A stretch of 62,417 nucleotides of DNA from assembly GCA_017469355.1 (NCBI GenBank), contig JAFUGM010000001.1, positions 1 through 62,417 on the forward strand, given 5' to 3'. The translations under genes were made by a program, and so were the position numbers. Below are positions 43,515 through 60,623 of the stretch, in pieces; positions within the stretch are counted from its first letter, which is position 1; every line of letters begins with the position of its first letter. Source of the DNA: Solobacterium sp. Lineage in GTDB: Bacteria > Bacillota_I > Bacilli_A > Erysipelotrichales > Erysipelotrichaceae. The notes below the pieces were generated by a model, which saw nothing but the letters and a program-made list of their open reading frames with translations, did not search any database and was not told where the DNA came from.

Positions 43515-44117
43515 ATGAAGCGGAAGCGACTGAAACCGATCCCTGCCGCAATCTGTGCCGCATTGGCTTCAGGACTGCTCAGTGCAGCTGGTGTACACAT
43601 GACAGCTGCACTGCTGTCCTCTTCCGAGAGGGTACTTAACCGCGCAGGGTTTGCGGAGAATACCATCACCGTGGAAGAACCGGATTTCAAACCGGATACC
43701 ACGCTGACTGAAGAGAAAGAAACCTTCGAGAAGACGGTGCGGATCAAGAATACCGGAACGACACCAGTCTATGTACGTACACAGATCGCCTTCAGTGATC
43801 CTCGGGCAGAGGCAGCCTCGTCATTAAAAAACAGTACGGGTACCTTCCCTGCAGGAGAACTGAAAAACCATCTCCCGCAGGGATGGGAAGCAGAGGGAGA
43901 GTACCTGTATTACACTCTCCCGATTCATCCTGGGGAATCGAGCAGCGATCTGATTGAAGCGGTAACAACTTCATATGAAGAATCCCATCGGGTGCCATAT
44001 GACATTTATGTCCGCTCGGAAAGCGTACAGGCGGTGCTTCCCGAACAACCACAGCGTACCTGGAAGGATGCCTGGGGTGTCATGAGGGGGCAGGCTGGAA
44101 CAGGAGGAACAGAATGA
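43515..44117 (+). CDS. Small exported protein, second probable SipW substrate
   Basis: A 200-residue protein with an N-terminal signal (about 1-33: ICAALASGLLSAAGVHMTAALLSSSE). Its hydrophobic stretch followed by ALLSSSERVLNRA resembles the entry of TasA-type substrates. The mature part has NTGTTPVYVRTQIAFSDPR, the beta-sandwich motif seen in camelysin-like proteins. It could be an accessory like TapA. It overlaps the subtilase start by 4 nt. Confidence 0.65.
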   Translation: MKRKRLKPIPAAICAALASGLLSAAGVHMTAALLSSSERVLNRAGFAENTITVEEPDFKPDTTLTEEKETFEKTVRIKNTGTTPVYVRTQIAFSDPRAEAASSLKNSTGTFPAGELKNHLPQGWEAEGEYLYYTLPIHPGESSSDLIEAVTTSYEESHRVPYDIYVRSESVQAVLPEQPQRTWKDAWGVMRGQAGTGGTE

Positions 44118-47100
44118 AGAAATACTTAACCGCATTGTTGACGGGGATTCTGATTGTGGGAAGTGGTCACCCGGTGATCGCAGAAGAACCGATTCCGGAA
44201 GAAGAAATTGAAGTGGAGATGGAAGAAGACTCATCAGAATCTTCTCAAGATATGACAATAGAAGAACCACAGGAAGAACAGGAAGAAGAGGCGTCGGAAG
44301 AAACAGAATACATGGAAATGATCCCTTCGGAAGAAGTGATCACAGAAGAACTCATGGAACAGGAAGAACTTCCAATCTCCTGGTCCCATCGCTTAATCGT
44401 GATCAGTGGATCCGGTGTGCGTCCTCAGGAACATGTGCTGTCATTTTATGAAGATCTTTACCTGCTTGGATTTGAGAATGAATCGGAGCTGGAAGAAGCA
44501 CAGTCTTACTACAGCGGCCTTGGTGCACATGCGGAGAAGGATGAGGTGATTTCAGCGGCTGAATCAGAAGGTGATATCAAGGATGTGGAAACGGAAATCT
44601 CTTCCGAAAACAATCCAATTGACCGCCTTCAGGAAACCCTGAATGAAGCAGGGAGTCCAGCTGGGGAAGATACCTATCTTGTGGCGTTAATTGATACTGG
44701 AACAGACTGGTCCTGCCCGAACGTCATCTCAGCCACATCCATGTTGGGAGAAGATGCGGGAGATGATAACGGTCACGGCTCACGTATGTTGGGATATCTT
44801 GTGGAAGAAAACCCGAATGTGAAGGTGCTCTCCATTAAGGCATTGGATGAAAACGGACGAGGTACGGTTTCTTCCGTATATGCGGCGATGGAATATGCGA
44901 TTGAACAGGGTGCGAATCTGATCAGCCTGTCTGCTTCGGCTTATCGGACAGAGGAAACAAGTCTGATCAAAGAGGAAATCGGACGGGCATCCATGTTGGG
45001 AATTCAGGTCGTTGGTGCGGCAGGAAATCAGGGAATGGACGCGAAGTATTTCATTCCCGGCGGAAGTGAACCAGCGTGGATCATCACCTCCTGTAATGAA
45101 CAGGGCGTACGTAATGAGAATGCGAACTATGGGGCGACGGTAGACTGGATGGTCGTATCGGGATCTACATCGGAAGCAGCAGCCCGATTCAGCGGAATTC
45201 TCTCCGCTTCCTTCGGGATAATCAATGATCGGGTTACCGGTCATTCCAGCGTCTTCTCTATGACGAAGGATGAGGAAGATGGCAGTCTGGAACTTCCTGA
45301 GGATCTATCAGAAGATTTTGAAACACAATGTAATACCTTCTTCTATGGCGATGCATATTTCTGGGGAATTCCCAATGGGGCCACTGATACTGGTGGAGCG
45401 ACATTGATTCCCGGATACCAGCAGGAAACACTTTCCGCCAAAACCGATACTGCCAATGGGTATGGCGTTCAATTCCAGAGTGTTGCGGATACGACATTTA
45501 CACCGGGTCATGGGTATGCGGTGTTTGCGAGTACCCATAAAGAGAATGCGGTAACCAGCTGGACCGGAAGTGTACATGTGAATGACTGGCGTGGCACATA
45601 TGAAGCCTGGGGAAGAAGATTCAATTCTTCCAAAGCATACACGGTCTCCCGCAAGACAATTCCCGGCTATACCTATCGAGGAATGGTCGTATCACAGAAT
45701 AAGACCGCGGTTCCTGCTTCCCGTGCGGTCAGTTCTTTAAACCGATCCACCAGCACGACGGTAAAGCTTGGAGAGGAAGCTGCTATTTACTGGGATGATA
45801 TTCCCGGTGTGAATTCCACCTATTGGCAGGGATGGGCAAAAACGAGTTCCGGAACGGAATACAGTTCCTTCCGTGTGGATTTCTACTATGAAGAAGACAT
45901 TCCGGTATTCCAGCTGAAGATCAATTATCTGGAAGAGGGATCCGGCAAGGTGCTTCATGAAAGTTATGGGCCAGTCGATGTGGCGCAGGGCAGTACCTAT
46001 TCGGTTGAATCACCTGTGGTATCCGGCTATGAGATTTCGAATGAGGCGAATCGTGTCGTCAGCGGCACGATGCCGGGACAGAATGTGGAACTCACCGTGC
46101 TTTATCGAAAGGTATATCACATTGACACAAAAGTGATTAATGGAAAAATCACATTGGACAATACACAGGAATCTTCGGGAACGGTCGGGGATGATACGTA
46201 CATGGCAGAAGGATCCGTCACGGATATCTCCTATGGAACCTCACGGACAATTCGCTATGAACCTAGAGATGGATATCTCCTTGATTACATCAAAGTAGAC
46301 GGAGCAGAGATTAATCCCTACGGATTGGAGTCGTTCTATCAATTTGAAACAGTGAAAGCCAATCATACGATTGAGGTTCGCTATGCGGCGCCCCCGATTA
46401 CAGAGGATGCCAAACAGGTATTGAACAGCAGCGGGACAAAAATTGACGGGCAGATCACTGCCTCAGGTGAGCTATTAACCTATCAGATCAAAGTAAAAAA
46501 TACGTTCTCTTCAAAGCGAGACTTCCATATTGAAGATAACATTCCTGGCGGTACGGAATATGTAAGTGGGAGTGCTACACATTCTGGAAGTGAATCGAAT
46601 GGCACATTGAAATGGACCATTTCACTTTCAGCCAATGCGGAGGCGATCGTTGCCTTTCAGGTAAAGGTGAAGGAAGAAGCGGAAGGAACCATTGTTAAGA
46701 ATCATGCGGATGTCTCCGTGAATGAATGGACCTTTACGACAAACATGACGCAGAATCCTGTACTGAAGAAGCCAATCAAGGATGTCTTCAATCAGGAAAA
46801 TGAATCGATTGATGGAATGTTTGTGTCGAAGGATGAGGTGCTGCGTTACGCCATTACGGTAGAAAACCCGGCAGATACAGCCAGGGAGTTCACTATTTTG
46901 GATCCCATTGATCCAAAGCAGATTGTCAAAGAGACATCCATCAGTGATGACGGTCAACTGGATGAATCGACTATCCTTTGGATAGTATCCATTCCTGCAG
47001 GTGCTTCAAAAACGGTGACGTTTGAAACCACTCCAACAGGCACCGGGCTTACCATTCCAAATCAGGCCATCGTAAACATCGATTCCTGTGAAGCGGAAAC

Positions 47101-47887
47101 CAACCGTACCGTAGTCATGACGCCTGAACCGCCGGTGAAAAAAGTAAAAACCCTTCTGGGAGAAGAGATTGATGGCCTGTCGCTTGGCCGGGGAGAGCCA
47201 TTCCTCTATGAAGTGACTGTCCATAACAATGCGTCCTCACCTGCTTCATGTACATTGACCGATACGGTTCCGGATGGAATCCGTGTATTGCGTGTCGGCT
47301 CAAAGGAAACGGGAGATCGAGGGACGGCAGTGATTGATGGCAGAGAGGTTCGGTTTGAAGTGACACTTGAAGAAAACGAAACCATGACTGTTCAGATCTG
47401 CTGTGAGGTTACCGAAGCCGGAGGCGTGTATGAAAATCAGGCGTACCTGCAGGTTGGATCGGTAGTGCTGCCAAGTAATACGGTTTCCAACTGGTCCGGA
47501 CAGATTGTGATTGAGGCAGAGACGGAAGAAGTATATGAGCCATATGGGATTCCTTCCTTTCTGTATGAAATTCATGATCATGAACGTACATCCCCATGGA
47601 TGCGGATGATTCAGATTGCGTCAGATACGAAAACGGGGACAGCGGTATTTGATATTCCAACCGGTCACGCTGGTGATACGTGGGGAATTCGTGATCTTCC
47701 TGGCGATCGGTATGTATTTGTGAAGACAACACCGAAAACTTCCAATGTAAGTACGGATGAAAGAAATGGTTCTGTAATTATCGATTCAGAACATCGTCTG
47801 GGTGTAATTCATTATCTCTATCGTATTGATCGATGGGATGATACCTTTCATACCGATTCCAGAATTAATTCCATTCACGTAGAATAG
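44114..47887 (+). CDS. Giant exported subtilisin-like protease with MucBP and DUF11-like repeats
   Basis: A 1257-residue exported protein. Signal peptide about 1-23, then a strikingly acidic Glu-rich linker (24-88) and a prodomain-like region (about 90-180). An S8 domain (about 185-375) follows, with catalytic candidates D194 (LIDTGTD), H221 (NGHGSR), N305 (AAGNQG) and S353 (GSTSEAAARF, replacing GTSMAAP). A ligand-like domain, a MucBP-type repeat (about 600-680), and three DUF11-like repeats (about 780-1110) follow, then a short unique tail. There is no LPXTG or membrane anchor. It is last in the SipW operon. Confidence 0.8.
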   Translation: MKKYLTALLTGILIVGSGHPVIAEEPIPEEEIEVEMEEDSSESSQDMTIEEPQEEQEEEASEETEYMEMIPSEEVITEELMEQEELPISWSHRLIVISGSGVRPQEHVLSFYEDLYLLGFENESELEEAQSYYSGLGAHAEKDEVISAAESEGDIKDVETEISSENNPIDRLQETLNEAGSPAGEDTYLVALIDTGTDWSCPNVISATSMLGEDAGDDNGHGSRMLGYLVEENPNVKVLSIKALDENGRGTVSSVYAAMEYAIEQGANLISLSASAYRTEETSLIKEEIGRASMLGIQVVGAAGNQGMDAKYFIPGGSEPAWIITSCNEQGVRNENANYGATVDWMVVSGSTSEAAARFSGILSASFGIINDRVTGHSSVFSMTKDEEDGSLELPEDLSEDFETQCNTFFYGDAYFWGIPNGATDTGGATLIPGYQQETLSAKTDTANGYGVQFQSVADTTFTPGHGYAVFASTHKENAVTSWTGSVHVNDWRGTYEAWGRRFNSSKAYTVSRKTIPGYTYRGMVVSQNKTAVPASRAVSSLNRSTSTTVKLGEEAAIYWDDIPGVNSTYWQGWAKTSSGTEYSSFRVDFYYEEDIPVFQLKINYLEEGSGKVLHESYGPVDVAQGSTYSVESPVVSGYEISNEANRVVSGTMPGQNVELTVLYRKVYHIDTKVINGKITLDNTQESSGTVGDDTYMAEGSVTDISYGTSRTIRYEPRDGYLLDYIKVDGAEINPYGLESFYQFETVKANHTIEVRYAAPPITEDAKQVLNSSGTKIDGQITASGELLTYQIKVKNTFSSKRDFHIEDNIPGGTEYVSGSATHSGSESNGTLKWTISLSANAEAIVAFQVKVKEEAEGTIVKNHADVSVNEWTFTTNMTQNPVLKKPIKDVFNQENESIDGMFVSKDEVLRYAITVENPADTAREFTILDPIDPKQIVKETSISDDGQLDESTILWIVSIPAGASKTVTFETTPTGTGLTIPNQAIVNIDSCEAETNRTVVMTPEPPVKKVKTLLGEEIDGLSLGRGEPFLYEVTVHNNASSPASCTLTDTVPDGIRVLRVGSKETGDRGTAVIDGREVRFEVTLEENETMTVQICCEVTEAGGVYENQAYLQVGSVVLPSNTVSNWSGQIVIEAETEEVYEPYGIPSFLYEIHDHERTSPWMRMIQIASDTKTGTAVFDIPTGHAGDTWGIRDLPGDRYVFVKTTPKTSNVSTDERNGSVIIDSEHRLGVIHYLYRIDRWDDTFHTDSRINSIHVE

Positions 47888-47892
47888 TGACG

Positions 47893-47917
47893 AAAGGCAG
47901 GAGAGATTCCTGCCTTT
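47893..47917. terminator. Terminator at the end of the SipW operon
   Basis: A perfect 10-bp stem, AAAGGCAGGA (47893-47902) with TCCTGCCTTT (47908-47917), with a 5-nt loop. The T-tract is short. It separates the operon from a convergent SDR gene. Confidence 0.65.
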
Positions 47918-47921
47918 AGAT

Positions 47922-48623
47922 TCACTTTGGCTTGCGGGAGATTCTATGAAGTTGAGGCTGAAGTGTCAATTCACTGATCAGTGTTCCCTCTGGTTGATGA
48001 ATGACCTGGCTGACCGCCTCAGCCACCTGTTCAGCCGTAAGATAGGCGCCAGGAGTACAATCGGGTCCGAACTCTGCGTTTCGGTAAAGATCCGTATCGG
48101 TGAGATCAGGAAGGATGGTACATACCCGGACACGATGTTTGCGGTTTTCTTCAAACAGGGTGCGCCCAAAATGGTATAGACCTGCCTTGAGGGCACCATA
48201 GGCTGCCCCATGGGTACTTGTCTCAAGTGCTGTAACACTGGAGATGTTTATTACCATTCCTTTTGAAGCCCGTAAGGATCGGATCAGACATCCGCATAAC
48301 ACCATCGGCGCCTCAAGATTTACCCGGGTCATCTGCTGAATGGAATTTACGGAGATGGTCTCGTGCGGTCCATACCATGCGCAGCCGGCACAATTGATTA
48401 ATAAATCAAGGGAAGAAAGCGAAAGGGAGTTCAGAAAGGAAGGGATTTGTTCCGTAAGAGATAAGTCAAAGACACATGCATGAAATAACGGGTTGTTGGG
48501 AAGTTCACAGGAAGAAAAGTCACGTCCTACACCATAGACTTCCCACTGTTCCTGTAACAGAGAAGAAGCGATCGCTTCTCCGATGCCGGAGGAAGCTCCG
48601 GTAATAAGTGCAGTTTTTGTCAT
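47922..48623 (-). CDS. Short-chain dehydrogenase/reductase
   Basis: A 233-residue classical SDR. TGASSGIG binds NAD(P), NCAG stabilises the fold, and the active-site serine (ISSVTA) and YGALK tyrosine/lysine are present. The substrate is unknown. The start overlaps the radical SAM gene stop by 4 nt (ATGA). It is the last gene of a six-gene minus-strand run from 52303. Confidence 0.9.
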   Translation of the reverse strand: MTKTALITGASSGIGEAIASSLLQEQWEVYGVGRDFSSCELPNNPLFHACVFDLSLTEQIPSFLNSLSLSSLDLLINCAGCAWYGPHETISVNSIQQMTRVNLEAPMVLCGCLIRSLRASKGMVINISSVTALETSTHGAAYGALKAGLYHFGRTLFEENRKHRVRVCTILPDLTDTDLYRNAEFGPDCTPGAYLTAEQVAEAVSQVIHQPEGTLISELTLQPQLHRISRKPK

Positions 48624-49633
48624 AGATCCTCCTCCAGACGTACGATCTGTTCGCGCGGCACATATGGTTCAAGCAGTTGTATCAGAAACTGTTCTGCTTC
48701 TTTCTGCTTTGGTTTGGAATAGCCGCAATAGCCATTTGATGTTTCATAAGGGTATTGAATGATGACGGAATCAGGACAGCGTTTCCTCATTCTGCGCTGA
48801 TAGGATTCCGATTGGCGATACGTGCCGATTGTGATATCCCGGATGAGAGAAAAATCCACTTCCTGAATCAACTGATCCACAAGTGTCTGATAGGAGTCCT
48901 TCCATCCTGGGAAACGGATGATTGGGTCAAGACAGATGCGTACCGGGAAGCCACATCGGGAGGCTTCCTTCAATGCGCTGATGCGTGCGGAGAGACTTCC
49001 GGTTCCGTGTTCACTGGATCGGATCAAAGATTCCGGGGAAAGTGTAAATGCGAAAATCATTCGATCGCTTGGGCATAGGGAAGCGTAGAGTTCTGCAGAA
49101 CCGCTTTTGGTTCTTACTTCTGCGGTCAGACCAGGATGAGAAGTGATGAAGGAATTCCAGGTATGAATGTGTCCGGTAAGAGTTTCCAGTGGGACAAGAT
49201 CTGTTTCAAAGGAAAGCGAAAGATACAGCGGGCCTTCCTCCAACATACGTTCTGTGTGGGATAAAAACTCTTCGGTATTGATGAAGATGACCGGAAAAGC
49301 AGAAGAATACATTCCCTTCAGCCAACAGTACTCACAATCAAACAGACAGTTGATCATGGTAGAGGTATAAAAGAAGCGGTCATTTCCAAAGTTATGACAT
49401 ACCGGTGCCCCAGGATACAGAAACGTTCCATGTTTCTTCGCAAGGATCAGATTCTTGTGTGAAGTCTGAAACGCAAGGCTCTGATTCGGACGATTGAATA
49501 CATCGGTATATCGTTCAATTGGAATGATGACTGGATGATTCAGTCGGCTCAGAATTCGACTGGTTTCAGGATGATCATAGATCTCACGTTCCACATAGAC
49601 ATGAGAAAACAGACTACGGGAGGAGTTCTTCAT
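48620..49633 (-). CDS. SPL-family radical SAM protein (spore photoproduct lyase-like)
   Basis: A 337-residue radical SAM enzyme. CLFDCEYCWL supplies the three cysteines of the 4Fe-4S cluster in the SPL form, and SFETDLVPLE and RTKS belong to the barrel. Spore photoproduct lyase itself repairs UV lesions in spores, but no sporulation genes are here, so the reaction is uncertain. ATG 49633 follows GGAGG by 7 nt. It overlaps the nucleosidase gene by 20 nt. Confidence 0.85.
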   Translation of the reverse strand: MKNSSRSLFSHVYVEREIYDHPETSRILSRLNHPVIIPIERYTDVFNRPNQSLAFQTSHKNLILAKKHGTFLYPGAPVCHNFGNDRFFYTSTMINCLFDCEYCWLKGMYSSAFPVIFINTEEFLSHTERMLEEGPLYLSLSFETDLVPLETLTGHIHTWNSFITSHPGLTAEVRTKSGSAELYASLCPSDRMIFAFTLSPESLIRSSEHGTGSLSARISALKEASRCGFPVRICLDPIIRFPGWKDSYQTLVDQLIQEVDFSLIRDITIGTYRQSESYQRRMRKRCPDSVIIQYPYETSNGYCGYSKPKQKEAEQFLIQLLEPYVPREQIVRLEEDL

Positions 49634-50435
49634 AGAGTACCTCCAAGATCTGTTTTCCCTTTGCCCGATCAGAGGCGGGGAGATTTCCTTCTTCATAGAG
49701 ACGCTGAATCAACGGGGTTATTTCAATTTCCGCAAGCGAACAATAATGCAGGAGCTGGCGAAGCTGACGCCGCATCGTTACCGATGCGCAAAGGTCCACT
49801 TCCAGCTGCTCGAACGAAGAATTCGGTTGTGTTACTGGCAGTTCTGATTCTTCCAGTTCATGAAGGACAGTTTCACAAAGGTTGCTGGAATACTTTGATA
49901 ATACGGTTTCCTCTGGCTTCTCCCCAAGATCAGAGACAATTTTCAGGAACTTCATACGATGTAGCGGTAATCTCGAATGGGCTGCCTCAAAGATCCCGGA
50001 AGCTTCCATATCACACAGCACACTGGCTTCCTTCAAAACGGTGTTCAGAAACAACGTACGATCCATGGAAGAAGTAAATGGGAATGCCAGGGTAATCAAA
50101 GATGCCTCTGTAATCGAAGAGAGAGAGACATCGGGATAGTAATCCCGGTTTGAGGCGTAATCATGAATACGGTGAATACGAAAGATCTGTCCTAGGTGGG
50201 CAGATTGAAGACTGCCTGCCCACCCAGCATTGATCAATAGGTCGGTTTCCTTCGCCTGATATCGCTCTAATACCGAAGCGGTAACTGCCGCCGCCGTAAG
50301 AGGCCCGGTTCCGGTCAGGGAAAGAACCGTATCTTCATTCTGAAAACAGCGGATCGCTCCATCCACCTGTTTCAGATTCAGTGCTTGAATCAAAGGCGCT
50401 GCTTCTTTCTGCAGAGCCATAAAAATAAATCGCAT
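49614..50435 (-). CDS. Phosphorylase/nucleosidase superfamily protein
   Basis: A 273-residue protein of the PNP/MTAN fold. The N-terminal IFMALQKEAAPLI and LSLTGTGPLTAAAVTA with INAGWAGSL are typical. DMEASGIFEAA supplies the ribose-binding Met-Glu. A C-terminal extension of about 80 residues (RRQLRQLLHYCSLAEIEI) is not part of the usual fold. Its base and sugar specificity cannot be told. Coupling with the SPL-type enzyme suggests that they act on related nucleosides or nucleotides. Confidence 0.75.
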   Translation of the reverse strand: MRFIFMALQKEAAPLIQALNLKQVDGAIRCFQNEDTVLSLTGTGPLTAAAVTASVLERYQAKETDLLINAGWAGSLQSAHLGQIFRIHRIHDYASNRDYYPDVSLSSITEASLITLAFPFTSSMDRTLFLNTVLKEASVLCDMEASGIFEAAHSRLPLHRMKFLKIVSDLGEKPEETVLSKYSSNLCETVLHELEESELPVTQPNSSFEQLEVDLCASVTMRRQLRQLLHYCSLAEIEITPLIQRLYEEGNLPASDRAKGKQILEVLYEELLP

Positions 50436-50444
50436 GGATTCTCC

Positions 50445-51101
50445 TCAACGGAATTCAATTACAATCAGAATTCCTTCATCCACTTCCTGCAGGGCGGAAC
50501 GATACAGCGCACGGAGCGCATCTTCTCCGCTGTGATCGGCACGGGTGAGGTAACGCTGGGAAGAAGCTTCTGTTTCCAGTTCGTTCTGAAGCTCCTGTTG
50601 AATCAGATTCTGCTGTTCTGCATTCAGTTTCAGATCACCGAACGACAACAGATGATGATCCACATCTGAGAATTCGGTCTGCTCGGGATAAACGGTAACC
50701 GTCTTCAGCTCGCTGTGCGGGACGGTAATCGTAATTGTGTCATTGTCAGAGTCAAATATGACATCATCTTTCTGAAGATCATTAAGACGAATGGTATAGA
50801 AGGCGGTTCCGTAGGAAGTCATCGTCATGGATTTCTTAAACAGATCCAGATTCAGAAAGGAAGTGCTGATTTCCTGCGTCAATGAAAGATCCTGTTCATA
50901 AACAAGCAGTTCCGCTGTCGTGCGGCTTTCCTGCACGATCAGTTCCTGAACATTCACTTCCGTTTGATGCATAATTGTTTCCTTCTCTTCAAGAGAAACA
51001 GTATGTACCTCCTGGGAAGAAGGGAAGAACGTCGTATAAAGCCCATAGCCGATCATTGCGATGACCAGAAATTTAAATAAAGTCCAGAGCACCTTGCGCA
51101 T
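50445..51101 (-). CDS. DUF4230 membrane-anchored protein
   Basis: A 218-residue protein with one N-terminal membrane anchor (about 8-26) and an extracytoplasmic domain with FKKSMTMTSYGTAFYTIRLNDLQKDDV, matching the DUF4230 family. Function is unknown. It lies 3 nt downstream of the flavin-type gene and 9 nt upstream of the nucleosidase gene, so it is in the same run. Confidence 0.75.
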   Translation of the reverse strand: MRKVLWTLFKFLVIAMIGYGLYTTFFPSSQEVHTVSLEEKETIMHQTEVNVQELIVQESRTTAELLVYEQDLSLTQEISTSFLNLDLFKKSMTMTSYGTAFYTIRLNDLQKDDVIFDSDNDTITITVPHSELKTVTVYPEQTEFSDVDHHLLSFGDLKLNAEQQNLIQQELQNELETEASSQRYLTRADHSGEDALRALYRSALQEVDEGILIVIEFR

Positions 51102-51104
51102 AGA

Positions 51105-51578
51105 TTACCTCGGTTTCTTCCGCTGCTTGGCAGTCATGGCTGTCACAGTAAGACAATAGACTTCCGTTCGGGGAATGACAGCGGTATTGATTGGCATGGG
51201 ATCCATGTGATAGTGAGCCATCAGGCAGGTGAGCCCATGAAGCTTCTCTTCGCCTTCCACAAAGGTGATGACACCCTGACCGATCACAGAGCTGTAAACG
51301 GTAGAACAGTTCATCTTCTCTTCTTCATAGAAGAGTTCCTGATCGGTATCCGCCTCAAAGGAGACATTCGGATTCTGACGAATCAGATCAAGTTTTCTTC
51401 CTTCCGTGGCACTGTGAAACCAGAGTTTCAGAACCGTTCCGTCATCTTCCATTCCAAAACTCATTGGAATGATATAAGGGACTGGGGTGTCATTGATCGC
51501 AAGGCGTACGGTATCACACCGAGACAGGATATCAATCATTTCATTACGGTCGGTGACTTCTCTGTCTTTTCTTCTCAT
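51105..51578 (-). CDS. Pyridoxamine 5'-phosphate oxidase-like (NimA-type) flavoprotein
   Basis: A 157-residue FMN-binding split-barrel protein. MRRKDREVTDRNEMIDILSRCDTVRLAINDTPVPYIIPMSF is the NimA-like N-terminus and FVEGEEK and CLMAHY occur later. It is probably a reductase for nitro compounds or an unknown electrophile. The start overlaps the HAD stop by 4 nt. Confidence 0.87.
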   Translation of the reverse strand: MRRKDREVTDRNEMIDILSRCDTVRLAINDTPVPYIIPMSFGMEDDGTVLKLWFHSATEGRKLDLIRQNPNVSFEADTDQELFYEEEKMNCSTVYSSVIGQGVITFVEGEEKLHGLTCLMAHYHMDPMPINTAVIPRTEVYCLTVTAMTAKQRKKPR

Positions 51579-52303
51579 AATCTACCTCCATTTATCTGTT
51601 TCAATAATGTAAGAACTTCTGCCGGCTCTTTGACACACGGATAGGAAGAAACCGGAGATTCCGGATTCTGGGCGATGGAACAAACACCATGAATTCCATA
51701 TTCCGATGCCTTATCAAGACTCAAAACAAGATCATCCACATAAATCGTCTCTTCTGGCGGTAACTTCATCGCTTCAAGCGCGGTTTCATACATCAGGGGA
51801 TTGGGTTTCATCACCCCAAGATCGCAACTCAGCACCGCAAAGTCATAATAGTCCCATAACCCGGCTTCTTTCTGCTGGGGGACAGTGCTGGGCCAGGTAT
51901 CAGAAATCACTCCGACTCGATAGCCATGGTTTTTCAGCGTTTTCAGTGTCTCACGCGTGGAGTCAAACAGAATATAGTTGGAAAAGTTATAGGTATGATC
52001 CCACGCGATCTCTTCAATGACTTCCTGAGAAAATCCAAGGGAAAGCGAGCGATTCAGATCGGTATAAAACTCAGTAAAGCGAACACGCTCTTCTTCGCAG
52101 TCGTTCATCTTATGGCGGGTGGTCAACGGACGATAAGCGTCCGCTATGGCCTGCTTGCGAAGGACTGGATCAATCTTATGAAACTGAGACTGCTGGGCAT
52201 GGTGAAGAAAACAGGGAGTCAGAAGCCAGTCTTCCCCGGCGTGATACTCCAAGGTCCATCCCAGATCAAAAAACACACCGTTGATTGCACGTTCTGTATT
52301 CAT
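51575..52303 (-). CDS. HAD superfamily hydrolase-like protein, second motif-I Asp missing
   Basis: A 242-residue HAD-fold protein. Motif I reads FFDLGWTL: the nucleophile aspartate is present but the second aspartate of DxDxT is glycine. Motif II is VISDT, III has KPNPLMYE, and IV is VDD. The cap domain is the alpha-helical insert. Lacking the general acid/base, it may be a poor phosphatase or use another chemistry. ATG 52303 has a -10 box only 6 nt upstream and no ribosome site. It heads the six-gene minus-strand run. Confidence 0.83.
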   Translation of the reverse strand: MNTERAINGVFFDLGWTLEYHAGEDWLLTPCFLHHAQQSQFHKIDPVLRKQAIADAYRPLTTRHKMNDCEEERVRFTEFYTDLNRSLSLGFSQEVIEEIAWDHTYNFSNYILFDSTRETLKTLKNHGYRVGVISDTWPSTVPQQKEAGLWDYYDFAVLSCDLGVMKPNPLMYETALEAMKLPPEETIYVDDLVLSLDKASEYGIHGVCSIAQNPESPVSSYPCVKEPAEVLTLLKQINGGRL

Positions 52304-52338
52304 GGGAACAGTATAGCATCTGCTATACTGTTCCCATG
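52301..52338. promoter_or_regulatory. Perfect palindrome carrying two divergent leaderless promoters and both ATGs
   Basis: Two 18-bp arms separated by 2 nt (52301-52318 and 52321-52338). Each arm reads, from the centre outward, TGCTATACT then GTTCCC then ATG. So both genes have an identical extended -10 ending 6 nt before the start codon, and the ATGs lie at the palindrome ends. Predicted transcription starts are the A of each ATG, 33 bp apart. The two promoters cannot easily be occupied at once. Confidence 0.85.
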
Positions 52339-53190
52339 GCAAAACACCGCAGGAAACGTAAGCTTAGAATCGACCGGATCGCAATCCTGATCGGGATGAT
52401 TCTGATACTGCTGTTTGGAGTAAGTAAGGCAAGTTCCGTAATCATAAACAATCTGAAACGGGAAGAAGAAGTCCCATCAGAGACAGAAGAACCGGTAAAA
52501 GTGGATCCGGTATATCGTCACGCCTATCAATGGGAGGCACTCGATGATTCGGGAATGCTGTATCACTATGAAGATGATACCTATACGTCACGGGTTGGAA
52601 TTGATGTTTCACACTACCAGGGGACAATTGACTGGAATGAAGTAAAGAATGCCGGAATCGAATTTGCATTTATCCGGGCAGGATATCGGGGATATACAAC
52701 CGGAGAACTTCATGAGGACACCGCCTTCCGTACCAATATGGAAGGAGCTCTGAATGCGGGGATTGAAGTAGCGGTTTATTATTTCTCGCAGGCCGTAAAT
52801 GCGGAGGAAGGGGAGGAAGAAGCAGCGTATCTGCTTTCTTTGATTCAGGAGTATCCAGTGAATGTATGTGCCTATGATCTTGAGATTGACCGCTCCAAGG
52901 ACCGTGCCCGTGCCAATACCGTGGAAGACAGTACAGAAGCGGCACAGGCATTCTGCCGAAAAATCACAGAAAGCGGGTATACCCCGCTTGTATATGGAAG
53001 TGTCAGCTTCCTGAATCATGAACTATCCATGGCCGATCTGCAGGATGAAACTCAGTTCTGGCTTGCCTGGTATGATACATCAGCGCCTCCGTTTCCCTAT
53101 GCCTTTACCATCTGGCAATACAGCAGTAAGGGAGACCTGCCTGGGATAGACACCGATGTGGATCTGAATCTGCTGTTTGTCAGGAAGTAA
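52336..53190 (+). CDS. GH25 lysozyme
   Basis: A 284-residue membrane-anchored muramidase. A short basic head and one membrane segment (about 13-35) lead to a GH25 domain (about 85-284) with GIDVSHYQGTIDW, AFIRAGYRG, YYFSQAV and the YDLEI glutamate region. It hydrolyses peptidoglycan at MurNAc-GlcNAc links. The ATG at 52336 is preferred because the -10 box sits 6 nt upstream; the frame extends to 52285 without support. It is divergent from the HAD gene and convergent with yigZ (11-nt overlap). Confidence 0.88.
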   Translation: MAKHRRKRKLRIDRIAILIGMILILLFGVSKASSVIINNLKREEEVPSETEEPVKVDPVYRHAYQWEALDDSGMLYHYEDDTYTSRVGIDVSHYQGTIDWNEVKNAGIEFAFIRAGYRGYTTGELHEDTAFRTNMEGALNAGIEVAVYYFSQAVNAEEGEEEAAYLLSLIQEYPVNVCAYDLEIDRSKDRARANTVEDSTEAAQAFCRKITESGYTPLVYGSVSFLNHELSMADLQDETQFWLAWYDTSAPPFPYAFTIWQYSSKGDLPGIDTDVDLNLLFVRK

Positions 53191-53788
53191 CTTCCCACTC
53201 CCGGAATTCTTCTCTTAGAAAAGTGGCTTCTGTTTTTCCTTTGGAAAGATTACGCACCTGTTCGGGAATGGAGTCATCGTCTCCCGCAAAGATACAGGTG
53301 ACCTGTTCCCCATATTCGAGATTAATCACTTCATAAGTTCGGCGCACCCATCCTTCCAGAACACCAGAGAGATCATACGGATAGGTGATGGAGTAGACCT
53401 TCACCGGAATATCTTCTGCTTTTTTTGCGGCCTGAAGGGTATCCAGGGTACAACCGCCATAGGCTCGTGAAAGACCTCCGGTCCCCAGCTTGACTCCGCC
53501 AAAATACCGCACAACACAGACACAGGTATCGGTAAGACCACTGTGACGGATCGCCTCAAGAATCGGAATACCTGCGGTACCGGAGGGTTCACCATTATCT
53601 GAGGAGCGGGCAGTATCCTTTTCACGCAGAAGGTATGCGGTACATACATGGGTCGCCTCAGGGAATTCGCGGCGTATCTGCGCAATATAGGAACGGGCCG
53701 CATCTTCGGTTTTAACCGGCGCAGCACAGACGATGAATCGGGATTTACTGATCAGCGTCTCAGAGCGCACTTCTTCTTTCAGTCTCAT
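53180..53788 (-). CDS. yigZ: YigZ/IMPACT family protein
   Basis: A 202-residue protein. SSDNGEPSGTAG and VVRYFGGVKLGTGGLSRAYG are the IMPACT/YigZ signature, and a C-terminal DUF1949 domain follows (about 135-202). Family members are linked to translation control, but the bacterial role is unsettled. TGT-TATCAT ends 7 nt before the ATG with no ribosome site, so it looks leaderless. The upstream region is duplicated by an insertion element. Confidence 0.92.
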   Translation of the reverse strand: MRLKEEVRSETLISKSRFIVCAAPVKTEDAARSYIAQIRREFPEATHVCTAYLLREKDTARSSDNGEPSGTAGIPILEAIRHSGLTDTCVCVVRYFGGVKLGTGGLSRAYGGCTLDTLQAAKKAEDIPVKVYSITYPYDLSGVLEGWVRRTYEVINLEYGEQVTCIFAGDDDSIPEQVRNLSKGKTEATFLREEFREWEVTS

Positions 53789-53843
53789 CGTTTAAATGAT
53801 AACAGACAGGCAAACGGTCAGCACGAAACGCACGAAATAAGAT
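53781..53843. repeat. 63-bp target-site duplication, left copy
   Basis: Identical to 55865-55927. It includes the first 8 bases of yigZ and its promoter. Confidence 0.9.
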
Positions 53844-55864
53844 CCCTTCTTTGACAGTTATCTGATGTAAAAACACGAGAAAGTGCGATTGTTATGCGCA
53901 TATTCTCGTGTTTGCGTTTTGCGTCGATATTACGTAAATTACTTTGATCGTTGCTTGGTCTGCCGAATCATTGCGCGAACCTTTGATTTCGTCATGATCT
54001 GGAAGTCAGTTCTGAAACCAAATGTTATATGAAGATTGTCTGTTAGATCTGTTCGCTTGAATGCAGGCTGATACCCAACTCCTTCAACAGCTAGAAGTTT
54101 CATGGATCGCAGTGTGTCGATAATCTCTGGAGAGGTAAATTCCTTACCCAATTTCTTTTCTAATAGCCTATACAGTAATAGTGCCATAAAGCAGGTGAGG
54201 AAATGAGCTTTGATACGATCGTCTCTCTGCAGGTAGACCGGTCTTGCCCGAAAGTCTGTTTTCATGATTCGGAAAGATTCTTCGATTTCCCATCTCTGTT
54301 CACTTATTTTCAGAATATCCTTGACTTCCTCTTCAACCAGATCTGTACATACCGCATAATAGCCGTCATACATCGCTTCGTTATCAATCTTTTCCTGATC
54401 AAGCGCATAAGCTGTCTTATCGGCTACTTCTCCATCTGCGGTAACTGATGTCTTCTTCACAAACCGTGCAGGATCATTCGGATTATTGTGACTCTTTTTC
54501 TTGGATCCATTTTCAATCATGACTTCAGCGCGCTCTATCTGTTTGGATCGAATCGCTTTCTGATATAAGGCGTATTTGGGAGAGTAAGTAACGATCATCA
54601 ATTGTTCCGGTACTTTCTTTGTCCCATATACTTCTTCCTTGTAATACAGTTCATTGGTATGTTCTTCCGGATTGGCTTTGATTTCCTGAAGGTCTACTAA
54701 TTTACCATCCGACAGCCGCCGCCAGTTCCGATTGTCCATGGCTCCTTCCCGTTCCTTCTGCTTCAGCTTCTTCAGCGACTGGGTAACGATGAAGGCACGC
54801 CCTTCAATATCGTTGAACTGCCGGTTGTCATTTGAGCCAAGTCCACCATCTGTACACACTATGAACTTATCAAATCCGAAGTCGCGGATAATCTTCTGTT
54901 CCAGCGGCTTCATAGTAGGCTGTTCATTCTGATTACCTGGATAAATACTGAAAGACAAGGGAATACCATCGCCATCCATGAATAAACCCATACCGACAAT
55001 CGGATTAGGCCTGTTCTCTTTACTTTTCCCGTACTGCTTTAAACCATCTCCTTCTTCAATCTCAAAGTAGTAGTTTGTGCAGTCATAATAGAGAACTCGA
55101 TTATTACGTTTTAGAACGAAGTTACTGTTCTTATAGACTTCTGCCTGAATATAATCCATTTCCTTAGCCAGAACAGATAAGGCACGGTAGACATCGTAGT
55201 CGTGATACTTGGGCGGTTCCAGTAAGGACTGGCAGAACTCATAGGAAGACTTCTTACTTCCCGGTTCTAAGATGCGGGCATAGATAAGATCGGAGAATAT
55301 GGCGTCCAGATCATAGTCAAACTTATATCTGTTCCGGATATTCCGGCATACGTTGTCCAGTTTCAGATCATAGTAAAGAGACTGGAGAAAGAGATACCCG
55401 GAATAGAAGAGTCGTTCCACATCCTTTTCAATCAACTGATTAGGATAATAATCGACAGTAATCTTCTCGTTATTCTTTTTCTCTTCTTCAGTAAGACGCT
55501 TAGCTTCTTCTTTGGCCCAGGAAAGAACTTCATCTCTGGACATATTCATAGACTCCATAAGATCAGGAATCTTACCAAGAGATTTAACGGTAACCGTAGT
55601 ACGTGTTTTACCGGAAGGATTCGTCGAAGATTTCTTACCACGGACATCACGGAGATAGAGATCTTTGATGATGTAAATAGAATCAACATTTTTAGAAGAA
55701 GGTCTAACAGAGATACGCATAATAATCACCCTAGGACATTATACCATACCTACGATACCCTACGATATACAAAAACACAAAATTTGACAAAAAAATAATG
55801 CGATTTTCCGCATTGCGATCGCATTATTCAATTTCCTAAGTTTTTCTTAACTGTCAAAGACCCG
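53844..55864 (-). mobile_element. IS1634-type insertion sequence
   Basis: A 2021-bp element with one transposase gene. The terminal inverted repeats share TCTTTGACAGTTA (13 identical bases, near 53848 and reversed near 55860), with imperfect outer bases. It is flanked by an exact 63-bp direct repeat. Very long, variable target duplications are a known peculiarity of IS1634 and IS1549, which supports the family call. Confidence 0.9.
53939..55720 (-). CDS. IS1634 family transposase
   Basis: A 593-residue DDE transposase of the IS4/IS1634 group. VCTDGGLGS carries a catalytic aspartate, YDGYYAVCTD lies later, and RWEIEESFRIMKTDF is the Y-R-E-K-type signature with the catalytic glutamate. The N-terminus (ISVRPSSKNVDSIYII) is short. 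ATG 55720 follows TAGGGTG by 7 nt and is preferred over GTG 55729. It looks intact, so the element may be active. Confidence 0.93.
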   Translation of the reverse strand: MRISVRPSSKNVDSIYIIKDLYLRDVRGKKSSTNPSGKTRTTVTVKSLGKIPDLMESMNMSRDEVLSWAKEEAKRLTEEEKKNNEKITVDYYPNQLIEKDVERLFYSGYLFLQSLYYDLKLDNVCRNIRNRYKFDYDLDAIFSDLIYARILEPGSKKSSYEFCQSLLEPPKYHDYDVYRALSVLAKEMDYIQAEVYKNSNFVLKRNNRVLYYDCTNYYFEIEEGDGLKQYGKSKENRPNPIVGMGLFMDGDGIPLSFSIYPGNQNEQPTMKPLEQKIIRDFGFDKFIVCTDGGLGSNDNRQFNDIEGRAFIVTQSLKKLKQKEREGAMDNRNWRRLSDGKLVDLQEIKANPEEHTNELYYKEEVYGTKKVPEQLMIVTYSPKYALYQKAIRSKQIERAEVMIENGSKKKSHNNPNDPARFVKKTSVTADGEVADKTAYALDQEKIDNEAMYDGYYAVCTDLVEEEVKDILKISEQRWEIEESFRIMKTDFRARPVYLQRDDRIKAHFLTCFMALLLYRLLEKKLGKEFTSPEIIDTLRSMKLLAVEGVGYQPAFKRTDLTDNLHITFGFRTDFQIMTKSKVRAMIRQTKQRSK

Positions 55865-55927
55865 AGTCTCATCGTTTAAATGATAACAGACAGGCAAACG
55901 GTCAGCACGAAACGCACGAAATAAGAT
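55865..55927. repeat. 63-bp target-site duplication, right copy
   Basis: Identical to 53781-53843. It ends 3 nt before the start of the next gene, and carries a vestige of the yigZ start codon. Confidence 0.9.
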
Positions 55928-55930
55928 ACA

Positions 55931-57874
55931 ATGAAACTGCTTCAAATCATTATGAGATACAATCTTTACTTTGATATGTCCGCAATTGCGGTTACCGGGG
56001 TAATCCTTGTTTCCGCATTAATCTCAAAGTGGATTCCAACCTATAAAAATACGGCGTATCATAAGCTGACGCTGGGTGTTTTTCTTACGGCTCTTTCAGA
56101 TTTTCTTACGTGCATGTTGGAAATGAATCCAGTCAAAGAGAACTGGTATATTCCGGTGAAATATGCTCTGGACAGTGGATATCACTTTTTTCATGTGCTT
56201 ACGGGAATGTTTTTTCTTCAGTTTGGATTGAGTCTGATCAACATTCAGATCTACTCCAGAAAACGACGGATCCTGGTATATATGCCATTTGTGATCAACA
56301 CCGCACTGCTTTTGATCAATCTGTTTTATCCGATGGTATTTGGCTATGGGGGTGATGGGTCTTATTCCCGTGGCCCCGCAATCACGCTGATCTACGTCAT
56401 TGGGCTCTATTATCTGATCGGTGTTGTCGGGATGTTATGGCGGTACAGGAAGAGCGTAACCCATCGCATTCGTAATATGATGGCGGTTTATGCGGCCTTA
56501 AGTATCTCCGGAATTGCGATTCAGACCGTTCGACCAGACTTCATGGTCGGCGAATTCATGAACTCGATTGCGTTAGTTCTGATGTATCTCAATATTGAAA
56601 CAGCAGATGAAATCAAGGATGACCGCTATGGGATTCTGACCCGGAATGCGTATCTTCAGAGTGCCAAGCTGAATATCATTAACGAGACACCATTTCATAC
56701 GATCTTTGTGCGAATCAGTGATGCGCATGTCATTACTTCCGGTAAGAACCGGGTGGATACGGATCGAATGAATCTGGTTGTGGACTTTTTAAAGCGATAT
56801 AAGAAAGAGGTCTGGATCGGCGTATGGGATGAGAACTGCCTTGTGCTCGATATGATTCAGCCGAACGAAGTCCGCGCAAATGAAATCATGGCAGGAATTG
56901 ATACCCGCTTCCATGAGCCATGGGAAACGGAAGAAGGACCGCAGATGTTTGATGACTCCATCTGGCTGGTTCGATATCCGGAAGATATTCAGTCTGTTCA
57001 GGATCTGTCGCTGAAAGCGGATCTCATGATGGGGAGCAGTTTACAGCGTCATCGTGGAATCGTTCATTTTTCGGGAATTGATTTCACTGGTGTCAGCTGG
57101 AAACAGCGAATGAATGAACACGCAAGAGAGGCATTGCGGAAACGTACGATTGAAGTGCGCTATGGGCCGGTCTATGACCTTCGCTCAGAGAAGGTGGTTT
57201 CAGCCCGGGCGGTTCTGTTTTTCCCAGATGAAGAAGGACGGATGGTGGATGGGAATGCGTTTATCGATACCGCTGGCGGAGAGGAGTTTCTGTCCCAGCT
57301 GGATGAATATGCGCTGCAGGATGCGGCGAAGAATCAGCAGTACCTGATGAGAAACAGTACGCTGGAAGAAGTGTCGACACGCCTTGCGTATTCTGAAATT
57401 ACATCCAGGAAATTTGAAGACCGGATGAATCGAATCTGTGACAGAAATCGTTCTGACTGCACAAAGATGATGTTGAGAATCGCGGATGGAACCTATGCCC
57501 GTCTTCAGGAAGATCATGTCATGCGGTTACGAAACATGATGGATCAGGGCTGGATTCTTGCGATTGATGATTTTGGGATTGGCCAGTCTTTCCTGAGCCG
57601 GCTTGCGGATTCAAGAATTACCTATGTCATCATGAATCCTTCGGTATGCGCTTCGATGTTGGGAAGTGAAGAAGGAAGAGCCCTTGGGAAGGGAATTATT
57701 TATGCGATCCATGGGATTGGGAAGACGGTTACGATGACTGGCATTCATACCGAAGAAGATGCGCAGACTGCCAAGGAACTTGGGGCGGACTATGTCAGCG
57801 GAGATTTCCTCTGCGAACCGATGTCTCCTGAGAAGTTCCGGGTGTGGATGAAGGAAAGGGGATATTGCGAATGA
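55931..57874 (+). CDS. Membrane protein with degenerate GGDEF and EAL domains
   Basis: A 647-residue protein. N-terminal seven-helix membrane module (about 10-225), then degenerate GGDEF-like (about 235-395) and EAL-like (about 400-640) domains. EAL residues are lost: SARAVLFF stands for EALxR, TGIHTEED for EGVE and VSGDFLCEP for QGYxFxxP, while DDFGIGQSFL survives. It should not hydrolyse c-di-GMP and may instead sense it or regulate its partner. It overlaps the next, apparently active, EAL gene by 4 nt. IS1634 inserted just upstream, but the target duplication kept its promoter region. Confidence 0.8.
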   Translation: MKLLQIIMRYNLYFDMSAIAVTGVILVSALISKWIPTYKNTAYHKLTLGVFLTALSDFLTCMLEMNPVKENWYIPVKYALDSGYHFFHVLTGMFFLQFGLSLINIQIYSRKRRILVYMPFVINTALLLINLFYPMVFGYGGDGSYSRGPAITLIYVIGLYYLIGVVGMLWRYRKSVTHRIRNMMAVYAALSISGIAIQTVRPDFMVGEFMNSIALVLMYLNIETADEIKDDRYGILTRNAYLQSAKLNIINETPFHTIFVRISDAHVITSGKNRVDTDRMNLVVDFLKRYKKEVWIGVWDENCLVLDMIQPNEVRANEIMAGIDTRFHEPWETEEGPQMFDDSIWLVRYPEDIQSVQDLSLKADLMMGSSLQRHRGIVHFSGIDFTGVSWKQRMNEHAREALRKRTIEVRYGPVYDLRSEKVVSARAVLFFPDEEGRMVDGNAFIDTAGGEEFLSQLDEYALQDAAKNQQYLMRNSTLEEVSTRLAYSEITSRKFEDRMNRICDRNRSDCTKMMLRIADGTYARLQEDHVMRLRNMMDQGWILAIDDFGIGQSFLSRLADSRITYVIMNPSVCASMLGSEEGRALGKGIIYAIHGIGKTVTMTGIHTEEDAQTAKELGADYVSGDFLCEPMSPEKFRVWMKERGYCE

Positions 57875-59784
57875 TGTTCAGTAATCTCTGGCTTTCCATT
57901 ACAGCGACCATTCTGAATGGCGTTCTGCTGTTCATGTCTTATATCGGGAATTCCAATCGGTTCCGCCAAAGCAGAATTTTCCGGGCCATCATTTATGTGC
58001 TTTTAGGAATTAATCTGTCGGTTATGTTATATTCACTGACACTTCGGCTTGAGTCCTATGTCGATCTGACGGAAACCGTAATGGAGTGGACGTGTTCCTT
58101 CCTGATCATGATCATGCCAGTGCTGTTTCTGGAGTATCTCAACAGTATTTTCTACTATGACGTCGTAAGGGCGAACCGCAGTAAGATGCTGGGGGTGCTG
58201 ATTGTGATCAGCCTGGCTGCGACGGTCTGGCTTGGACCGGTTGTCACATGCGTGAACCGTACGATCATCCTGACGCCAGGACGCGGTGGTTACCTGTTTG
58301 TCATTCCCGCGACGGTCTTCCTGCTGTTTGGGCTATGGGAGGGCGTGACGCTGAAGGCGTCCATTTCAGCGCGTCATGTATGGTCACTGCGTGGGTTCTT
58401 TGTGCTGTGTGCTCTGGCTGTAGCTTCGTTCATGTATTTCCGTCTTCTTTCCGCCTATGGGTTCATGGCTTCACTCTGCCCGCTGTTCTGCGTTTATACC
58501 CTCCAGGGAAGAGGTGTAGTGATAGACCAGGAAACCGGTTTAAGAAGCCGGGGCGCATTCCGTACATCCGTCGGAACCAGAATGGAATCCAACTCACAGT
58601 TCCGGGTCATTCTGATTCATATTCGCGATTTTTCGGCGTTATATGCGGAAGGAAATGAGCAGGATGCGGATCACTTGTTGCCACGGATTGGTGAGGCGCT
58701 GGAACAGCTGTCTGATATGCCGGTATTCCGAGTCGCTGAAAGTTCCTTTGCGATCCTGCAGGATGATCGTGATGAAGCGCTGACACAGGAACTTCTGATT
58801 GCGTTACGCAGCCGGTTTTCTTCCGGAATTAAAGCGGGCCACAGTAACTATCGAATCGGAGCGAATGTCGGCGTTCTTGATTATCCGAAGGACATCAAAT
58901 CCATGGATGATCTTCAGATGGCAATGGAGCTGCTTGCGGGTGGTACATATGGAGCGCGGAATGAAGTTCGTCTGCAGTCACTGAATCTTTCCGCGGAGAA
59001 GGAGATCCGGGAACAGGCCGGTGCACTCAGTAAGGCGTTGATGGAAGACCGTATGGAAGTATGGTATCAGCCGATACTGAACACAGCGACCGGACGTTTT
59101 GAATCCGCCGAGGCATTAATACGAATGAAGGCGGAGGATGGTTCGTATGTAAGACCGGATCGATTCATCCCTGCCGCAGAACAGAGTGGACTGATCATGC
59201 GTGTTGGCCGGTTTGTATTGAAGGAAGTATGTTCGTTCCTGGCCGATCCGATTCGGGAAGAGCTTGGAATCCGATATATCGAAGCGAACCTTTCCGTAGA
59301 AGAATGTATCCAGGAAACACTTCCGGAAGAGATTCGGGCAATCATGAGTCAGTTTGGCACAGATCCTGATTCGTTGAATATTGAAATCACCGAAACATCC
59401 AACGATACAGCGACCGAACTGATGATGACAAATGTCAGCCGGATTCATGAAGAACAGGGCCTGTCCTTCTCTTTGGATGACTTTGGGACCGGATATTCCA
59501 ATCTGACCCGGATTCTGTCTATGCCGGTGGGAATTATCAAGTTTGACCGGTCGATGTTATTGAAGGCATTCGAAACGGAAAACGGACGAATTGTATTTGA
59601 ACGCATGGCGAAGGTAATTCATGATCTGGGTCGTGAGATTGTCTCAGAAGGCGTAGAAACCGAAGAACAAGCTGCGTTTGTAAAGTCACTCGGGGTGGAA
59701 TATATTCAGGGTTTCTATTACGCAAAGCCGATGGGGAAAGCGGACTATATCAACTTCCTGAACGAGCAGGAAAAAGCCGCCTGA
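57871..59784 (+). CDS. Membrane EAL-type c-di-GMP phosphodiesterase with degenerate GGDEF
   Basis: A 637-residue protein. N-terminal membrane module of seven helices (about 8-210), a degenerate GGDEF domain (VAESSFAI where GGDEF should be), and an intact EAL domain (about 385-630). The EAL landmarks are EALIRM, IEANLS, EITETS, DDFGTGYSNL, IKFDRS, EGVETEEQ and IQGFYYAKPM. It should be an active phosphodiesterase. It is coupled to the preceding degenerate paralogue of the same layout, and the two may form a heteromer in which one senses and the other cleaves. Confidence 0.88.
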   Translation: MMFSNLWLSITATILNGVLLFMSYIGNSNRFRQSRIFRAIIYVLLGINLSVMLYSLTLRLESYVDLTETVMEWTCSFLIMIMPVLFLEYLNSIFYYDVVRANRSKMLGVLIVISLAATVWLGPVVTCVNRTIILTPGRGGYLFVIPATVFLLFGLWEGVTLKASISARHVWSLRGFFVLCALAVASFMYFRLLSAYGFMASLCPLFCVYTLQGRGVVIDQETGLRSRGAFRTSVGTRMESNSQFRVILIHIRDFSALYAEGNEQDADHLLPRIGEALEQLSDMPVFRVAESSFAILQDDRDEALTQELLIALRSRFSSGIKAGHSNYRIGANVGVLDYPKDIKSMDDLQMAMELLAGGTYGARNEVRLQSLNLSAEKEIREQAGALSKALMEDRMEVWYQPILNTATGRFESAEALIRMKAEDGSYVRPDRFIPAAEQSGLIMRVGRFVLKEVCSFLADPIREELGIRYIEANLSVEECIQETLPEEIRAIMSQFGTDPDSLNIEITETSNDTATELMMTNVSRIHEEQGLSFSLDDFGTGYSNLTRILSMPVGIIKFDRSMLLKAFETENGRIVFERMAKVIHDLGREIVSEGVETEEQAAFVKSLGVEYIQGFYYAKPMGKADYINFLNEQEKAA

Positions 59785-59834: not shown

Positions 59835-59852
59835 TGGTATACTGTTTCTATG
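59835..59852 (+). promoter_or_regulatory. Extended -10 promoter abutting the nadK start codon
   Basis: TGG-TATACT (59835-59843), then GTTTCT, then ATG 59850. This is almost the same as the lysozyme/HAD palindrome arms and has no ribosome site. Confidence 0.6.
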
Positions 59853-60623
59853 TTTACTTACGCGGTAGTAGCACGTCCCGATGAAGTTTCCAATGCCTTG
59901 AAACAACAGACGGACGACATCCTGACACAACATGGATATACCCTGGATGAAACAGCGCCGGATACGGTGCTGGTCATTGGCGGAGACGGAACGTTTATTT
60001 ATGCCGTCCATAAATACATTGATGTGCTTGACCGCGTCCGCTTCTTTGGAATTCATACCGGAACACTCGGGTTTTATACCGATTACCGGGATACGGATTT
60101 TGAGGAATTCATTCAGACATTCCTGAATGGCGGAGTCAGTGAATACAGCTATCCCATTCTTGAGGCGAAGACAGAGCGGGGCACATATTACGGAATTAAT
60201 GAAATCCGGGTGGAGAATGCGTCACGGACACAGGACATGGATGTGTATCTAAACGGGAGATTGTTTGAAACCTTCCGGGGTACGGGCCTGTGTGTTTCGA
60301 CACAGCTGGGCTCCACCGCATATAACCGATCTGCCGGAGGTGCGGTAATTCAGGAAGGACTTTCTCTGATTGAACTGACGGAGATTGCCGGCATTCATCA
60401 TTCTAAGTATCGATCGCTGAATTCTCCGTTTATTCTTGACGATAAAACTGAGATTTCCTTCTCCTCTGCCAGTCTTAAAGGAGCACTGTTGGGGGCAGAC
60501 AGTGAGGTGTTCTCACTGGATGATGTAACGAAAATAGATGTTTCTGTTTCAAAAGAGAAGCAGGTAAAGATGTTAAAGGGTCGCAATGTATATTACTTTG
60601 ACCGTCTTCACAGCCTGTTCTGA
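59850..60623 (+). CDS. nadK: NAD kinase
   Basis: A 257-residue NAD kinase, phosphorylating NAD to NADP. GGDGT (residues 44-48) is the catalytic motif, GINEIRVEN carries the NAD-binding Asn-Glu, and TQLGSTAYNRSAGG completes the site. The start is ATG 59850, 6 nt after a -10 box; the earlier in-frame start at 59826 lies in the promoter. The PTS-like gene follows after 9 nt. Confidence 0.95.
   Translation: MFTYAVVARPDEVSNALKQQTDDILTQHGYTLDETAPDTVLVIGGDGTFIYAVHKYIDVLDRVRFFGIHTGTLGFYTDYRDTDFEEFIQTFLNGGVSEYSYPILEAKTERGTYYGINEIRVENASRTQDMDVYLNGRLFETFRGTGLCVSTQLGSTAYNRSAGGAVIQEGLSLIELTEIAGIHHSKYRSLNSPFILDDKTEISFSSASLKGALLGADSEVFSLDDVTKIDVSVSKEKQVKMLKGRNVYYFDRLHSLF

Follow-up and report, generated by a model that had tools for sequence, protein, structure and literature searches.

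A GH25 lysozyme-family gene and a six-gene operon headed by a HAD-family hydrolase diverge from a perfect palindrome at 52301-52338 of the window, the 62,417-nucleotide stretch of a contig (JAFUGM010000001.1) from a gut Solobacterium sp. analysed here. We consider it probable that the palindrome consists of two extended -10 promoters that overlap and lack -35 boxes, that these give rise to two leaderless mRNAs, and that the arms became identical in one lineage.

The Palindrome Contains Two Predicted Promoters and Both Start Codons

Direct reading of 52301-52338 gives CATGGGAACAGTATAGCA-TC-TGCTATACTGTTCCCATG, in which two 18-nt arms, 100% complementary to each other, form an exact inverted repeat around a 2-nt centre (TC) and include both start codons. 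Each arm is composed of TGC-TATACT-GTTCCC-ATG. On the minus strand, the extended -10 element of the HAD operon promoter (TGC TATACT, 52310..52318; hexamer at 52315-52310) belongs to the spacing-6 class of this genome described below. The corresponding element of the GH25 promoter lies on the plus strand (TGC TATACT, 52321..52329; hexamer at 52324-52329), and an equivalent TGnTATAAT-N6-ATG is found in genus orthologues. The two hexamers are separate, with 8 bp between them, and on both sides the ATG follows 6 nt further on. Transcription is predicted to start 7 nt downstream of each -10 box at the A of the ATG, which places the putative +1 of the HAD operon at 52303 (minus strand) and that of GH25 at 52336 (plus strand), 33 bp apart.

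The palindrome lacks a -35 hexamer, a -35/-10 scan lists nothing there, and the -35 position of each promoter is taken up by the start codon of the opposite gene. With TGC before TATACT on both strands and no -35 hexamer, both promoters are of the extended -10 type. A Shine-Dalgarno sequence is absent on both sides, the 15 nt upstream of each start being TGCTATACTGTTCCC. The sequence agrees with a preliminary description of this DNA, which had reported the palindrome with its arms and centre and, in each arm, a mirror-imaged TGC-TATACT, six bases and an ATG lacking a ribosome site. The geometry is also consistent with its prediction of +1 positions at the two ATGs.

The HAD-family hydrolase gene (51575..52303, minus strand; PF13419, 1.3e-14), whose N-terminus is backed by orthologues at 58-65% identity, is the first of six close or overlapping minus-strand genes. 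The other five (47922..51578) are PNPOx-like, DUF4230, PNP_UDP_1-like (phosphorylase-like; below cut-off), SPL-like and a short-chain dehydrogenase (SDR). On the plus strand, the GH25 lysozyme-family protein (52336..53190; PF01183, 1.7e-35) has a hydrophobic N-terminal segment. These assignments confirm the gene content claimed earlier, a GH25 gene on the plus strand and a six-gene HAD operon on the minus strand. An Rfam scan of 47500-54500 returned no RNA family, and a plasmid search with the region gave no match. A terminator is ruled out, as there is no T tract and the hairpin lies in neither predicted transcript.

Two further parts of the window deserve mention. Positions 44114-47887 (plus strand) encode a protein of 1257 aa that looks secreted; it has subtilisin-like motifs (ALIDTGTD, GHGSRM) and, further on, repeated domains. 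The interval 53939-59784, which separates the GH25 region from an NAD kinase gene, holds a DDE transposase and two large genes whose products, by sequence reading, resemble EAL/GGDEF-type signalling proteins. In genomes G001 and G007, NAD kinase lies ~0.7 kb beyond GH25, which suggests that the window genome has undergone an insertion or rearrangement here.

Predicted Leaderless Genes Form a Minority Class in This Genome

The distance between -10 box and start codon has a sharp peak at 6 nt in 0.70 Mb of this genome (23 cases), with 10 cases at 7 nt and ~5 at typical other spacings. This count relates a TA[TC]A[ACT]T box to candidate starts of 603 mechanically called genes, the starts themselves being assigned mechanically. 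A genome-wide count of TGNTATAMT-N6-ATG gives 10 occurrences, the palindrome arms being two of them, compared with 3 and 2 at the control spacings of 11 and 3. Because a spacing of exactly 6 is enriched genome-wide, leaderless genes are, as far as can be judged from the DNA, a real minority class here. Both palindrome genes have the -10-adjacent starts of this class, with a spacing of 6 in both arms and no Shine-Dalgarno sequence, and the position of the -10 boxes suggests that the GH25 and HAD mRNAs are leaderless. The proposal that two leaderless promoters of the same geometry diverge here is thus backed by the genome-wide spacing peak, together with the conserved GH25 promoter described next.

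The GH25 Promoter Is Conserved while the HAD Side Is Labile

The genome groups with Solobacterium and other Erysipelotrichaceae, and its close named relatives are mostly ruminant gut MAGs. A search of 70 genomes of the genus turned up GH25 in 67. At 30 GH25 loci, the -10-to-start spacing was 6 in 22, 7 in four and 9 in three, with one unclear, and the -10 boxes mostly carry TGn. This pattern indicates that the GH25 leaderless promoter is conserved across the genus.

HAD is the divergent neighbour of GH25 in 22/30 loci and was not found next to it at the remaining 8/30. In the nearest species, the HAD side carries TACACT or TAGACT 9-10 nt before the ATG, from which a 3-4 nt leader is predicted. 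A spacing of 6 occurs in L079 and in the L011/L108/L110 group, with TATACT-N6 among the orthologue forms, and seven other loci (L115, L008, L010, L012, L113, L086 and L122) have Shine-Dalgarno-like sequences. Judged by these upstream sequences, the HAD side is labile, being leaderless, near-leaderless or Shine-Dalgarno-led depending on the species. In a distant HAD orthologue (L111, 41% identity), TATACTGTTCCATG stands at an upstream in-frame start and resembles the window arm. The start-to-start distance varies from 33 to ~75 bp across loci. With 53-65% protein identity, even the nearest relatives are distant, which leaves the ancestral state uncertain. Leaderless expression would thus be an evolving trait in Solobacterium, with one side kept leaderless genus-wide and the other shifting from species to species, being leaderless, near-leaderless or led by a Shine-Dalgarno sequence.

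The Mirror Symmetry Was Found in One Genome

Allowing one mismatch, the mirrored pattern occurred in no other of 96 family genomes sampled; its core dyad was in none of the other orthologous loci retrieved, nor was it found in viral contigs. The preliminary description had itself proposed to judge its reading by the fate of the symmetry in relatives, and none of the relatives examined has it, while the gene pair is kept. Exact mirror symmetry was seen in this genome alone among those examined, and the palindrome is probably not a conserved switch.

An assembly fold-back artefact is ruled out, since the arms stop at the start codons, the two flanking genes are different and the divergent order is kept in relatives. 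In 0.70 Mb of the genome (about 0.64 Mb in stretches plus the window), no perfect inverted repeat with a short loop is longer than the palindrome; the runner-up has arms of 14 bp, and no other perfect inverted repeat combines arms >14 bp with a loop <=8. This count leaves out N; the sampled set includes 5,630 N, which equals the combined lengths of contigs L032 (2,851 bp, N from end to end) and L045, so that both appear to be masked. A small weight matrix, built from the other 21 spacing-6 promoter candidates of the genome, puts the probability that two such promoters, drawn independently, agree at all 18 nt at ~2.6e-6.

This value overstates the surprise, as TATACTGTT recurs at the NAD kinase promoter of this genome and of its two nearest orthologues. 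The NAD kinase-like gene (59835-60623, plus strand), in the same window, has its own predicted leaderless extended -10 promoter, TGGTATACTGTTTCTATG, which is identical to the palindrome arms at 15 of 18 positions. Its two nearest orthologues keep TATACTGTTCGTATG (TATACTGTT-N3-ATG). A spacing of 6 is retained in the five nearest NAD kinase orthologues examined, and more distant ones are arranged otherwise. TATACTGTT thus looks like a promoter flavour of this clade. Within that subclass, ~4 positions are free, and by simple arithmetic identity would arise about once in 256 cases.

These numbers bear on the alternative that fares best, namely that the same two leaderless promoters are present and both genes independently drew the clade-typical TGn TATACT GTT. 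The NAD kinase promoters and the TATACTGTTCCATG of the L111 HAD orthologue speak for such a coincidence. Against it stand the 1 in 256 that holds even inside the subclass and the much smaller value under the general matrix, and we regard it as unlikely, though still to be reckoned with. Because arm identity beyond the consensus is improbable by pure chance, an unrecognised constraint on the symmetry is possible.

Perhaps, instead, arm identity arose in one lineage by template-switch homogenisation acting on a shared promoter consensus. Template switching at quasipalindromes makes the arms of inverted repeats identical, as two reports describe (PMC7202029, PMC8604942). Such a process could have yielded the identical arms seen here, but the corresponding regions of relatives are only weakly repetitive, and the templated change is at most putative. 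The window arms mix features of both sides of the relatives, TGC and CCATG being of the GH25-side type and ACTG of the HAD-side type, a mixture that homogenisation by template switching would produce. The template-switch route is weakened by the folding of the orthologous intergenic regions, which is no better than that of shuffled sequences and yields no significant hairpin.

Co-Expression Is a More Probable Default than an Either/Or Switch

The preliminary description had read the mirror symmetry as a functional either/or switch, in which one polymerase, captured in either orientation, commits a cell or moment to GH25 or to the HAD operon, with equal arms setting an even balance. Identical promoters on both sides and predicted +1 positions whose 33-bp distance makes the polymerase footprints overlap are in keeping with this idea. 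Steric exclusion of opposed polymerases has been described for bidirectional promoters, and its effects on noise have been measured (PMC12825309). In the same study, interference in E. coli arose only once one side was strongly activated, and the five bidirectional promoters tested were transcribed too weakly at basal level to compete. The reading does not hold up in relatives, where the symmetry is absent and, in some species, the HAD side is leadered or Shine-Dalgarno-led. A conserved switch is unsupported because, besides the absence of symmetry in relatives, the distance between starts ranges from 33 to ~75 bp and a HAD neighbour was not found at 8/30 loci. That neither spacing nor symmetry is conserved argues against a selected switch, and we judge the either/or reading improbable. 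A regulatory switch is possible but, by the E. coli precedent, would not be the default.

A second alternative takes the palindrome for an operator, bound by a dimeric transcription factor through which both genes would be repressed or activated jointly. The perfect 38-bp dyad does exceed the promoter consensus. Promoter and start codon, however, largely account for each half, the dyad is absent from orthologous loci, and the genome has no close second copy; its one other match departs from the dyad at 3 of the 22 specified bases, which makes the operator of a wider regulon unlikely. Overall, we give an operator little credence. About as little weight goes to a built-in coin toss, in which one site with equal arms would capture a polymerase and split initiation between the lysozyme and the six-gene operon without a regulator. 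Least probable is a cruciform that extrudes under negative supercoiling, buries both -10 boxes and gates both promoters: the capability suggested earlier stands in so far as the palindrome folds very stably as single-stranded DNA (17-bp stem, 4-nt loop; -17.6 kcal/mol, z -9.9), but conservation lends it no support, as relatives that share the gene pair lack anything comparable.

We therefore return to a compact divergent intergenic region in which two extended -10 promoters stand back to back and have no -35 boxes. Both would probably use sigma-A, and each transcript would start at the A of its ATG, so that leaderless mRNAs would be made from GH25 and from the HAD operon alike. The GH25 promoter would have been held in the genus, while the HAD promoter may have drifted, with or without a leader and sometimes nearly leaderless. 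The region is shorter in this lineage, its arms having become identical through the shared promoter consensus plus, probably, template-switch homogenisation, or through chance. Because their footprints must overlap, two polymerases 33 bp apart are likely to exclude each other sterically and momentarily; as they could not sit on the site together, weak mutual interference would be expected. The presumed default would be co-expression of GH25 and the HAD operon rather than an either/or choice.

Comparison with Known Systems

Genes that lack a leader and start next to a -10 box have been described in bacteria by Zheng et al. 2011 (PMC3160421), in M. tuberculosis (PMC3898074) and in Deinococcus-Thermus (PMC12340547). 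The genes studied here share with them a TANNNT-type box ~12 bp upstream of the start and the lack of a Shine-Dalgarno sequence, as well as a TG peak before the box, which occurs there in some low-GC genomes. Among Firmicutes, the early survey placed leaderless genes mainly in Lactobacillales and Mycoplasma (PMC3160421). Unlike in that survey, the present case comes from Solobacterium (Erysipelotrichaceae) and consists of two leaderless genes facing apart in one palindrome.

The palindrome resembles the bidirectional promoters that Warman et al. (PMC12825309) studied in E. coli in that transcription would diverge from a short, symmetric segment with room for one polymerase at a time. Those promoters have one shared -10 and starts that are commonly 10, 18 or 23 bp apart, whereas here two -10 boxes lie 8 bp apart, with 33 bp between the predicted starts and, by prediction, no leader on either transcript. 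With separate -10 boxes, the palindrome is not a bidirectional promoter in the sense of Warman et al. Its full symmetry offers a clean natural substrate for testing the mutual exclusion of opposed polymerases at equal promoters.

The available text on M. tuberculosis (PMC3898074) describes closely adjacent divergent promoters as common, in a transcriptome rich in leaderless mRNAs. Adjacent divergent promoters in a leaderless setting are thus common to both systems, and perfect mirror symmetry is not described in that text. The perfect mirror image that includes both start codons is an extreme variant, so far represented by one genome.
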